DNA of 64,000 nucleotides from positions 4,779,048 through 4,843,047 of the forward strand of contig OZ026552.1 of assembly GCA_964020155.1 (NCBI GenBank), read 5' to 3'. The notes beneath the pieces are model-generated. The model was not told where the DNA came from. It ran no database searches and worked only from the letters and a program-made list of their open reading frames with translations. The translations under genes and the position numbers were made by a program. Source of the DNA: Chondrilla cf. caribensis. Lineage: Eukaryota > Porifera > Demospongiae > Chondrillida > Chondrillidae. Numbering within the stretch: the first letter of the stretch is position 1; each line of letters begins with the position of its first letter. Of the stretch, positions 34,125 to 64,000 are shown one piece after another.

Positions 34125-36030
34125 TCATTTTGCGGCCCCAAATGCTGCAAATTTGCTCAAATCCAGTTTTCCCACCCTGTGAGGTGTGCTCCCATCAACA
34201 CTCTCCGAGGTTTTGTCCTCTGTCTTTGTTGCCATGGGAGCCTCCTTCTGCTGCTCCTGTTCTGGTTTTACAACTGACGTGGACTGTTTTTGTTGTTGCC
34301 ATGGCTTCAAAGGCTCCGATTTGGCGCCACCTTCGAACTTACTCAAGTCAATGTTGCCAACGGACTTCACAGCGGTACCCACTGGCTTGACTTGGTCCGG
34401 CTTGGCTGTACGCTCCTGTTTTCTCTGTTGAATGAGCTGCATCCATGCAGGTTTGTTGCTGTCATCGGCAGAGGGAGGTGATGAGGGTAGCCATTTTGAC
34501 GTGTTCAGTTTCCCTACAGTTTTCTCTTCGGTTTTCGGTGGATCAGTGGATTTAGTAACACTTTTTTCTTGTACAACTCCAGGCAACAGTTCGTTTGTGC
34601 TCTGAAGCACCTGTGTTTCTTCCTTCACCAGACTCAGAGGTTCTGTCTTTTGTTGACTAACCACTGGCTCCTTCTTGGGAGGCGATGTCTGTTTCGTTTG
34701 ACCTGGCTTGTGGGGGGCGATGGGTTGGTTGAAAACCTGGAATCGGGACACACTGAGCCGTCCTACCTGCTTGGGCTTCCATTCTTCTGTCTGCGTGTGG
34801 TCCCTCGGGATGTCAATTTTCGGTGGTTCTCGAAGTTTGACCTCCACTGGTTTGACTTCTTTGGGAACGTCTACTTTGGGCGGAGGTTTCCATCCTTTTC
34901 TTTCTGGTTTCTTCTCTGGTACCTTTTTGACTGGTTCGGGAGATGGTTCACCATCACCAATGTTGAAGCCAACTGGCTCTTCAGCACCGATCTCAAATCC
35001 ATCTGGTGTTTCATCAGTTGCCGTCTTCTCGGTCGAATGTGAAGGAGGAGAGGGTGGTCTATCCTTCTCTACATCCTCCTTCTCATCAATGGTACCTTTA
35101 TCACCCTCCAGTGTTGATCCTTTAGGAACATCTTCCACAGCAGCTTTCTCGTCTGTCTTCTTGTCAGGTACATCATCATCCTTGGGAGGAGAAATGGCGG
35201 ACTTCTCAGCCTCACTGTCCTTCGTCAGTTTCTTCTGTTCTACCGATTTGGTTACAGGAGGTTCCTTCTTCTCTACCGGTTTGGTTACAGGAGGTTCCTT
35301 CTTCTCTAATGGTTTGGTTACAGGAGGTTCCTTCTTAACAGCCTTGGGTTTAGTAGCTGTCTTGGAGGTGGTTGAAAGAGAGCCTGAGAAGAGAGCTGTA
35401 CCTTTTTTCTTCGGAACTCCTTTCGGCTCAAGCTTTTTCACAGATTCGGGATCCTTAGTAGTCTCGTCTTGGTCAACACCTGGTTCTTCCAGCGTTGCAT
35501 GCGAGAAGTCTACTTCGAGGATTGTCACTGATTCTTCTTCCAACTTGTTGGGCATTTTATCATCAATTGAAGTTCTCGGAGTCTCTTCATCTCCAACAGA
35601 TTTCTTGGGTTGTACCGTCTCGTCTTTTGTAGGCAGACTGTCCAATGATGATGAAGAGGACTTACTTACTTTGACATTCAGGTCTGAAGTGTGAGAGAGC
35701 TTGGGTTTGGTGAAGCTGTCGACAGAAGACTCAGAGGTTGGGGCGGTCTCCTTGGGGGGAGTGGAAACATCCTTTGGTGAGGAGAATGGAGGAGGGGGTG
35801 TGGTGATACGGAGTCCACCAATGCCGTCTTTGCGACTGGAGCTTGGTGGGGGAGGTGGGAGCATGTTCTGAAGCATGAGTTTACGCTGAGTGCGAGGTGT
35901 GAGTGAATCCGAGTCAATGGGAGCTGAAAATGGCCGTTCTTTAGGCTCCATGTGATGAGGGAGAGCTGACAGCTTGGTCATCTCTTTCAACGTGTCATCT
36001 TTTTCACGAGCTGCATCTTCGTCCTTCTCT
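34125..36030 (-). other. Long disordered cytoplasmic tail with repeated short motifs
   Basis: About 600 residues rich in Pro, Lys, Glu, Ser and Thr. Three adjacent KKEPPVTKP units at about 35.24-35.33 kb. A motif VG-[KRN]-[LI]-x-x-S-[KR]-[FW] occurs four times (VGRLSVSRF, VGKLNTSKW, VGNIDLSKF, VGKLDLSKF), the last at the very C-terminus. Also Pro-rich stretches such as LPPPPPSSSRKDG. Confidence 0.8.
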
Positions 36031-63000: not shown

Positions 63001-64000
63001 GAATCCCCATATCCATGGCAACAATTGACACCTCATACATATCCACAACTTCCCTGTCCAGTGTATCAGCTGTTAAGAGACTAACACTATTTGCTTGTTG
63101 GATGAGGGTGAACACACCGGAGGTTTGATCAGTGGCAAGAAGGGTGAAGACAACAAGAGCATTGTCTCCTTCGTCAGCATCCACTACACTTGTGTTCAAC
63201 ACGAGTGATCCTTGCGAAGAATCTTCAGATATGTTCACAGCAATGGATCTTTGTGGGAAAAGTGGTGCATTGTCGTTGATGTCAAGAACTGTCACCAATA
63301 CTGTTGCCGTGGTGGATAGTGGAGGATTCCCACCATCTTCCACTCTAACCACAAGATCGTATGTGCCGACCAGTTCACGGTCGAGACTCGCTGATGTCGA
63401 CAGAACACCAGTTGTTGGATGGAGAGTGAACGGCACACCAGAAGTTTCGATGGTGTATGTGAGAGCAGCATTAGCACCGCTGTCCAGATCGTCGGCTTCC
63501 ACTGCGAGCACGAACACGGGAGGGTCTTCTTCCTCAGATACGCTAGCATTGTACGAGGTGGAGAAGAAGAAAGGGGGGTTGTCGTTGACATCCAGGACAC
63601 CAACCGTGACAACTGCTGTTGATGTTAGAGAATCTGGAGATCCAGCATCTCTTGCCACCACACTGAAGGTGTACGAGGTGATTTCTTCAAAGTTCAGAGG
63701 ACCCGAGACATATAACACTCCAGAGAGTGGGTCAATATCGAAAGGAATGTTATTGCCTTGACTACCGTTGCCATGAATACCATACGAAACATTACCATTA
63801 GCATCTTCGTCGCTGTCAGAGGCAGAAACAGTCAAGATGACTGTGAATGTAGACACATTCTCACTGGCTGTGGTGGTATAGATCAAACTGTCAAATCTGG
63901 GAGAGTTGTCGTTAACATCCAATAGAGTTATTCTCACTGCGGTGGTGCTGACGAGAGGGGGAGAACCCCGATCGTTAGCTGTAACTGTGAGGGTGTGAAC
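34125..64000 (-). CDS. Giant cadherin/TMEM132-like/cohesin-dockerin receptor with PTP-like cytoplasmic domain (5' end outside window)
   Basis: Single-pass adhesion receptor. Exons: A 42786-64000 (open at the edge), B 40493-41914, C 39343-39794, D 38969-39091, E 38162-38718, F 37714-37876, G 37514-37626, H 36950-37015, I 34125-36420. All GT-AG borders and phases from A to I agree, which strongly supports one gene. Order: cadherin repeats, two TMEM132-like/cohesin/furin-site/dockerin cassettes separated by a Ser/Thr-rich stretch, two FN3 domains (B, C), membrane helix GAIAGIIISALLSLLAVMLF (C), acidic and basic juxtamembrane region (D, E), phosphatase-like domain (F-I), about 600-residue tail. 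Exon A needs a one-base frame change near 42,950 to reach its donor. Closest described group by memory: coherins, plus receptor phosphatases. The combination is unfamiliar to me. Confidence 0.82.
36040..37876 (-). other. Tyrosine-phosphatase-like domain with altered catalytic motifs
   Basis: Classical PTP landmarks in order: KKNRYRN, DYINASFID, YIAAQ, VADFWQMIWEQ, RYWPEEG, HFEDWPEHGLPS, VLVHCANGLGKTGVV and QTHEQYRFC. The WPD loop has Glu in place of the general-acid Asp, and the P-loop CX5R has Lys where the phosphate-binding Arg belongs. The nucleophile Cys is kept. Active PTPs need both the Asp and the Arg for full activity, so a pseudophosphatase, as in inactive D2 or PTPRN-type domains, is the likely reading. 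Confidence 0.85.
37181..37510. repeat. 17-bp minisatellite with higher-order structure
   Basis: About 19 units of ACCAACTCAACATGCAC and variants, beginning next to the donor of exon G. A block of about six variant units recurs in the same order (about 37.27 and 37.37 kb). Confidence 0.9.
37928..38161. repeat. (CA)n array between exons E and F
   Basis: About 234 bp with CTCA and CATA interruptions. It abuts the donor of exon E (sense GTGAGTGTGTGTG). Confidence 0.95.
39149..39300. repeat. (TG)n array between exons C and D
   Basis: Pure at first, then interrupted with TGCA and CGCGCA variants. Confidence 0.9.
39960..40360. repeat. 53-bp minisatellite, 7-8 copies, between exons B and C
   Basis: Unit CTACTGGCTGCTATGAGGAG plus GTAACTCTCTGTAATGGTCA and CTGGAGGACTCAA. 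Alternating variants (TACTGGCTG / TACTGGGTG) suggest a two-unit ancestral block. Confidence 0.9.
41310..45825 (-). other. Cassette 2: TMEM132-like region, split cohesin-like domain, basic cleavage site, dockerin-like domain
   Basis: Internal duplicate of cassette 1. TMEM132-like part 42.95-45.8 kb: SDDIGLCVGSIFVPLDWFST, LYRGDVFTMTAFG, VNTAVLDGKNVETSI, DNCTTLYVS, VRVWQPDSYILDISDTSLSQ. The cohesin-like domain begins VNLDPDVGDVDLGE (about 42.93 kb), is interrupted by the (CA)n intron, and resumes at 41914 with LLAVDGVMSGADW. The basic site RTTRERRQ is at about 41.55-41.57 kb. Dockerin-like loops: GDADENCLVDLVDVAYLAMF and LDANLNSALDWNDVIHFF. Confidence 0.7.
41984..42785. repeat. 802-bp perfect (AC)n array forming nearly the whole A-B intron
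   Basis: About 401 uninterrupted dinucleotides. On the sense strand the donor of exon A is followed directly by GTGTGTGT. Only about 70 bp of other sequence separates the array from exon B. Confidence 0.97.
45830..46500 (-). other. Ser/Thr/Pro-rich mucin-like linker
   Basis: Dense Ser/Thr with SSS and TPSTPPPEFPP stretches between the two cassettes. Expected to be O-glycosylated and extended. Confidence 0.8.
47035..50655 (-). other. Cassette 1: TMEM132-like region, cohesin-like domain, basic cleavage site, dockerin-like domain
   Basis: TMEM132-like region about 47.77-50.65 kb: AECTTDTSGLCQVSVSL, LRPGETFVVPVTAY, INTAVFTGSRVSLPL, SSDCSEVFV, FVVWYPTNFSLS, all in family order. The cohesin-like domain, 47.34-47.77 kb, starts ANLDPDVGDVDLGE and has SIPLRV and LEVEVFYDSSLLSF. 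Then comes RRRRDSE and KRSRRQ (47.25-47.31 kb). The dockerin-like pair of calcium loops (about 47.04-47.23 kb) reads GDANGDCVLTFQDSRYLL and YDADSNGVVDISDAFFL. Confidence 0.7.
50660..64000 (-). other. Cadherin-repeat ectodomain, ~29 repeats with two VNDxP blocks
   Basis: Counting the calcium-linker motif (LDVNDNxP and variants) gives about 6 repeats at 62.33-64.0 kb, 16 at 55.24-60.23 kb and 7 at 50.66-53.16 kb. Between them are two blocks (60.23-62.32 and 53.16-55.24 kb) of five longer modules each. These begin FTExGPxV, contain SDPD or DxDS, and end VNDPP/MNDPP; they resemble CSPG-like repeats. The block pattern is 6-5-16-5-7. Several cadherin linkers lack Asp/Asn ligands (VIPLSSLAP, VEDGDDNP), so some joints may be flexible. 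Confidence 0.85.

Follow-up and report, generated by a model that had tools for sequence, protein, structure and literature searches.

A lefftyrin-type receptor gene of the sponge Chondrilla cf. caribensis with a possible furin-cut cohesin-dockerin clasp and a probable pseudophosphatase domain

Introduction

What kind of protein is encoded by a gene that joins cadherins, TMEM132-type domains, cohesin-like and dockerin-like modules, FN3 and a protein tyrosine phosphatase (PTP) domain, and what could a cohesin-dockerin pair do in such a protein? The question is raised by a stretch of 64,000 nucleotides from Chondrilla cf. caribensis (GenBank assembly GCA_964020155.1, 37 contigs, 137 Mb; contig OZ026552.1, positions 4,779,048 to 4,843,047), referred to here as the window; positions are counted within it, and those outside it are given as extended coordinates. 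By its domain order and the definition of the family, the gene is a lefftyrin-type adhesion receptor. Judged from sequence, we give a slightly better than even chance to a more specific reading: a single receptor of this type, in which two cassettes would be cut by furin and held together by cohesin and dockerin, and in which the PTP domain would act as a pseudophosphatase scaffold.

Gene structure and family

The gene lies on the minus strand, with its 5' start outside the window and its stop at 34125. Its share of the window consists of nine exons, from 64000 to 34125, with GT-AG borders and compatible phases, as an earlier note made from the letters alone had claimed. The open frame of the giant exon covers 7,021 codons up to the window edge and goes on upstream to a splice acceptor; it is preceded by four more exons, which encode a signal-peptide-like sequence (judged by eye) and place the start codon at extended coordinate 72530, and it is followed by eight phase-compatible exons that lead to the stop. 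The whole model has 13 exons and approx. 11,300 residues, 9,521 and 1,789 on either side of a frame change described below; the earlier note was thus right about a giant protein, although its figure of well over 8,000 residues was too low. The exons in the window are:

42938..64000, to extended coordinate 69352, minus strand: giant exon (window part), with cadherins, repeated cadherin-like modules and TMEM132 cassettes 1 and 2 (open frame of 7021 residues, Pfam)
40493..41914, minus strand: exon with the remainder of the second cohesin, linker, dockerin-like loops, following domain and first FN3-like stretch (splice model)
39343..39794, minus strand: exon with FN3 and membrane helix, the latter at approx. 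39421-39501 (Pfam, translation)
38969..39091, minus strand: juxtamembrane exon (splice model)
38162..38718, minus strand: cytoplasmic exon, acidic and serine-rich (splice model)
37714..37876, minus strand: exon, PTP domain part 1 (splice model, Pfam)
37514..37626, minus strand: exon, PTP domain part 2 (splice model, Pfam)
36950..37015, minus strand: exon, PTP domain part 3 (splice model, Pfam)
34125..36420, minus strand: last exon, PTP domain part 4, then a tail rich in proline and lysine in which [VI]GKLDLSKF-like motifs recur (splice model, Pfam)

Lefftyrins are already known from sponges and choanoflagellates. Nichols et al. reportedly defined them in 2012 by an N-terminal LEF region (Laminin-N, EGF and furin-like cysteine-rich), cadherins, and a C-terminal FTY region (FN3, membrane helix and PTP). 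The same order was found here. At the upstream end, Pfam detected Laminin_G_3, Laminin_N (E 1.3e-30) and four EGF_laminin domains over cut-off; the cysteine-rich part, tested alone, scored just over the cut-off for GF_recep_IV (30.1 versus 29.5) and below it for Furin-like (21.8 versus 26.8), and neither model matched it within a longer piece of 780 residues. There follow 39 cadherin stretches, 10 beyond the window and 25 + 4 within it, and the giant exon also holds a cadherin-like module marked by YxN..EP..R..DG, 14 copies by pattern count, which gave a single weak sub-threshold Pfam match, to CLSTN_C. At the other end, a single fn3 match (26.2 against a cut-off of 25 in the FN3 piece alone, E 9.5e-6; 23.3, below it, in a longer piece) precedes the hydrophobic helix, which was located by eye between ectodomain and phosphatase-like part where the earlier note had placed one, and the spliced PTP domain spans positions 1-232 of the 234 of Y_phosphatase (E 5.4e-70). 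The earlier note knew of no described family with this architecture; by the definition above that view does not hold, since the LEF, cadherin and FTY order is that of a lefftyrin.

The TMEM132, cohesin and dockerin cassettes

Between cadherins and FN3, one layout occurs twice. TMEM132-type domains come first, then another cohesin-like domain; a basic linker connects this to a dockerin-like double loop, after which one more domain follows. Ig_TMEM132_4th, 5th and 6th exceed their Pfam cut-offs, and TMEM132_3rd falls below (23.8 versus 27 bits). The best stretches are the 4th and 5th in cassette 1, and the sub-cut-off 3rd and the 6th in cassette 2, which has a weaker TMEM132_4th match as well. 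A cohesin-like domain and three Ig domains in the TMEM132 order are therefore recovered across the two cassettes taken together; Pfam did not recover the complete set within any single cassette.

49391..49678, minus strand: cassette 1, Ig_TMEM132_4th (Pfam)
49100..49327, minus strand: cassette 1, Ig_TMEM132_5th (Pfam)
47321..47779, minus strand: cassette 1, cohesin-like domain (coh2), borders approximate (profile match to solved cohesins; Pfam Cohesin E 0.0047, sub-cut-off)
47066..47215, minus strand: cassette 1, dockerin-like double calcium loop (profile match to solved dockerins; loop motif; no Pfam match of its own)
46496..47023, minus strand: cassette 1, domain following the dockerin, borders approximate (no Pfam match)
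44993..45286, minus strand: cassette 2, TMEM132_3rd cohesin-like domain (Pfam, below cut-off)
43925..44215, minus strand: cassette 2, Ig_TMEM132_6th (Pfam)
41343..41519, minus strand: cassette 2, dockerin-like double loop (loop motif)

Taken alone, the sequence gives the weak cohesin match listed above, and for its dockerin Pfam returned nothing, not even for the piece on its own with the E limit raised to 10. A profile built from the cassette and 26 homologous cassettes (27 members) matches dockerins and cohesins of known structure at the expected places, with E 2.3e-9 for the dockerin 4fl4 and E 5.4e-5 for the cohesin 4ums, and at E up to 0.05 Pfam Cohesin matches 23 of the 27 members and Dockerin_1 12 of them. 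Single-model searches of this genome evidently miss such domains, because Dockerin_1 and Cohesin found nothing in it at E 0.01. On the profile matches we take the cohesin and dockerin homology to be real.

Furin-type motifs in the linkers and the proposed clasp

All three furin-type motifs of the protein sit between a cohesin and a dockerin:

47309..47320, minus strand: RRRR, cassette 1 linker (pattern search)
47261..47272, minus strand: RSRR followed by Q, cassette 1 linker (pattern search)
41547..41558, minus strand: RERR followed by Q, cassette 2 linker (pattern search)

The motif R-X-[KR]-R was counted in 112,102 residues, comprising 16 homologues, the two parts of this protein and two paralogues, with the linker defined as the 60 residues before a dockerin. 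It occurs 53 times, and 40 of the 53 fall in linkers, which make up 2.1% of the residues; under even placement approx. one would be expected there, as compared with 37-40 observed. Eight of the 13 outlying motifs precede dockerins that the pattern missed (by eye). A linker motif is present in 27/40 cassettes, or in 34/40 if R-X-X-R is accepted. A second, looser dockerin pattern placed 37/53 motifs in linkers (25/39 cassettes), and after removal, by eye, of five close relatives 27 of 38 motifs remained in 1.8% of the residues (19/26 cassettes). Two such sites are often found in one linker; in 21 of 25 cassettes the last site is followed directly by Q, A or N. The number of cysteines after the last motif is even in 23/25 cassettes, zero in two of these, so that the halves would need no disulfide across the cut. 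In the paralogue on contig C21 a motif precedes the single dockerin, and in C7A it precedes one of at least two. No published account of furin sites in TMEM132 or cohesin/dockerin settings was found among the titles listed for those topics, and this arrangement, like the probable pseudophosphatase, may be new.

The following mechanism can be proposed. The very long cadherin ectodomain would reach outward, and the two TMEM132-cohesin-dockerin cassettes with the FN3 domains would form the membrane-near part. During export, furin-type convertases would cleave the linker between cohesin and dockerin in each cassette. This neighbouring pair, stabilised by the calcium loops, would then keep the halves joined non-covalently, as a clasp able to give way under load. 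On the inside, the pseudophosphatase and the long proline/lysine-rich tail would form a scaffold, the PTP domain binding partners instead of dephosphorylating them. The ectodomains of Notch and LAR are cut and then re-associated, and offer an analogy for the clasp. A clasp is the simplest reading. The cut motifs lie between domains whose bacterial counterparts bond very strongly, with rupture forces above 120 pN according to work cited in an extract of PMC6030884.

More generally, giant receptors of sponges and their relatives could be furin-cut and held only by cohesin and dockerin, as a breakaway clasp coupled to a conserved pseudophosphatase and lost together with the dockerin in vertebrate TMEM132 proteins; we hold this wider proposal tentatively, at somewhat less than an even chance. 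In vertebrate TMEM132 proteins the dockerin is described as undetectable in the extract of PMC6030884. If the proposal is true, it would give a function to the animal-lineage cohesin and dockerin domains, which that extract leaves open, place a class of cut-and-clasp receptors alongside Notch, adhesion G-protein-coupled receptors and LAR, and suggest what vertebrate TMEM132 lost.

Several points weigh against a furin-cut clasp. Thirteen of the 40 cassettes have no strict motif (14/39 under the looser pattern, where 4/39 have not even a dibasic pair), and in P0009, P0010 and P0013 no R-X-[KR]-R precedes any dockerin found with the first pattern. Other tetrapeptides in which three of the four residues are basic likewise tend to lie in linkers (6/17). 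The sequences are related, so that the counts are of non-independent events, and the length of 60 residues was chosen after the pattern had been seen. Finally, the TMEM132_3rd cohesin-like domain, present or possible in each cassette, may be the dockerin's partner instead.

Two other readings of the linkers have to be considered. The linkers could be cut by furin with the dockerin then gripping the cohesin of another molecule, in trans or in cis, so that cleavage would unmask a homophilic adhesion surface. Cadherin ectodomains are adhesive, each of the two cassettes of the protein combines a furin-type linker with a dockerin, and in P0001-P0015 a dockerin is present two to three times; nevertheless, cohesin and dockerin stand in tandem and in the same order in 40 aligned segments (by eye; segments excised by dockerins), which favours a local pair, and we regard binding between molecules as rather unlikely. 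Alternatively, the linkers might stay uncut, cohesin and dockerin being modules of a stalk and the arginine clusters a basic surface patch or chance. The other basic tetrapeptides and the cassettes that lack a strict motif agree with this; against it stand the recurrence of the specific R-X-[KR]-R form, its frequent doubling, the residue that follows it and its excess over even placement, and we consider it unlikely.

The phosphatase domain

Among PDB entries, the second PTP domain of PTPRS/LAR matches the PTP domain best. Two positions depart from an active classical PTP, in which a CX5R P-loop and the acid of WPD are found:

36321..36329, minus strand: WPE instead of WPD (alignment)
36198..36227, minus strand: P-loop HCANGLGKTG, with Lys for the catalytic Arg (alignment)

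The core of the P-loop reads CANGLGK and the acid loop WPEHGLP. The exchange of Arg for Lys in the P-loop abolishes catalysis in classical PTPs. HCANGMGK[ST]G and WPEHGLP are kept in P0019 and P0020, which are 58-59% identical in the domain, and P0018 (94% identity) keeps the P-loop, its acid-loop region not being covered; P0017, being the protein encoded in the window, brings no independent evidence. In the same genome, 30 PTP loci of 167 matches were fetched, two of which are this gene; a P-loop was visible in ten others, all ten with Arg, and the remaining 18 show none, as would be expected where it is interrupted by introns or falls beyond the fetched stretch. WPE alone is uninformative, occurring also in other PTP domains of this genome and in the second domains of LAR, and to that extent it counts against our reading. 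From the conserved Lys-for-Arg exchange together with WPE, the domain is probably a pseudophosphatase.

An active or phosphotyrosine-binding receptor phosphatase, with an architecture outside known families, is very unlikely: the phosphotyrosine-loop KNRY, the cysteine and the Q-loop are retained, but CX5K replaces CX5R here and in P0018-P0020, WPE is found in the only three sequences that cover the acid loop (this protein, P0019 and P0020), and the architecture is that of a lefftyrin. The tyrosine-phosphate recognition suggested in the earlier note is doubtful for the same two substitutions. Several copies of the [VI]GKLDLSKF-like repeat occur in the tail that follows (34128-36053), and similar repeats are found in P0019 and P0020.

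Homologues and the integrity of the gene

Scoring of the 755 candidates with the most shared words gave 15 giant homologues (weakest E 2.7e-101), and a search for short homologues by module added one protein, P0016. P0007, P0012 and P0016 are predicted proteins in each of which the cohesin/dockerin cassette is followed by a stretch that resembles FN3 by eye and by a hydrophobic helix; at E 0.001 Pfam did not recognise fn3 in P0012 or P0016. P0007, with 6,127 residues, also carries the cadherins. We favour one giant receptor, as claimed in the earlier note, because the second cohesin is encoded partly by the giant exon and partly by the exon after it, and because these three proteins continue into FN3-like sequence and helix; this is support rather than proof for this species.

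The reading frame changes within the second cassette:

42938..42963, minus strand: stretch where the reading frame switches (open-frame analysis, join enumeration)
42786..42963, minus strand: beginning of the cassette 2 cohesin, read in the other frame, to the splice donor (open frames, splice model)

The giant frame ends at a stop at 42935-42937 and the continuation is open from 42963. Both sides look coding, because NLDPDVGDVDLGE after the change is identical to cassette 1 and DYPGLF before it corresponds to EYPGLF there. An intron as the cause was judged unlikely: among the 143 stop-free GT-AG joins across 43200-42780, four (184-208 nucleotides) retain NLDPDVGDVDLGE, at the cost of the DYPGLF stretch, and none retains both. 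The change could stem from an error in sequencing, from an allele-specific indel, from a genuine frame shift or from an intron that takes away conserved residues; as a further point against our reading, this allele may fail to make a full-length product. Least probable of all is that cadherin/TMEM132 and FN3/PTP parts belong to two genes or a mis-assembly, or that the allele is broken here, for although the frame change and the loss of DYPGLF in the joins speak for it, the module order of cassette 1 (Ig, cohesin, dockerin) goes on across the change and P0007 unites the parts from cadherins to helix.

Two paralogous loci were also observed. The first, at C21:3519917-3530752 (L047-L048), combines a region of Ser/Thr-rich repeats with a single TMEM132_4th match and a hydrophobic helix; RRRR stands in front of its dockerin, and its juxtamembrane motif WYQAEEQ resembles WYQEEQ of the present protein. 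The other, at C7:4042573-4067802 (L042-L044), has an open frame of 8,410 codons with three TMEM132_4th matches and is tentatively coherin-like.

Comparison with known systems

Coherins likewise combine cadherins with cohesin-type modules; the present protein differs from them in its LEF and FTY ends. FN3, one membrane helix and PTP are shared with LAR-type receptor PTPs, whose second domain also has WPE, in contrast with the Lys for Arg in the P-loop found here; to our knowledge LAR has neither cadherins nor TMEM132 domains. Profiles recognise both domains of the bacterial cellulosome pair, but here the two are in one chain, in a eukaryote, with furin motifs between them. Lefftyrins share with this protein the Laminin-N/EGF/cysteine-rich N-terminus, the cadherins and the FN3-membrane helix-PTP C-terminus; the protein may differ from the described members in its apparently dead PTP and in the furin motifs between cohesin and dockerin. 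Lefftyrins also have TMEM132 domains within, and five of these in the same order are reported in the extract of PMC6030884 for lefftyrins, coherins and hedglings, and the same three families are named again in an extract of PMC5097364. In the animal TMEM132 family, a cohesin-like domain and three Ig-like ones come in the order seen here; the architecture that the extract of PMC6030884 gives for it has no cadherins or PTP.

Other features of the window

Several introns of the gene contain repeats. One of them starts directly at the donor site that interrupts the sequence coding for the cassette 2 cohesin:

41984..42785, minus strand: start of intron, perfect dinucleotide repeat of 401 copies (repeat scan)

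(GT)n also follows some other splice donors of this gene. One intron contains a 53-bp tandem repeat in 8 copies at 39938-40413, and another a 17-bp tandem repeat in 20 copies at 37171-37508. The window had no hits to Rfam at the gathering cut-off and none in a tRNA scan. Outside the gene, an exon of an MMS22L homologue lies at 29235-30272 on the minus strand, and a hAT-type transposase-derived frame (DUF4371, Dimer_Tnp_hAT) at 8396-10630.

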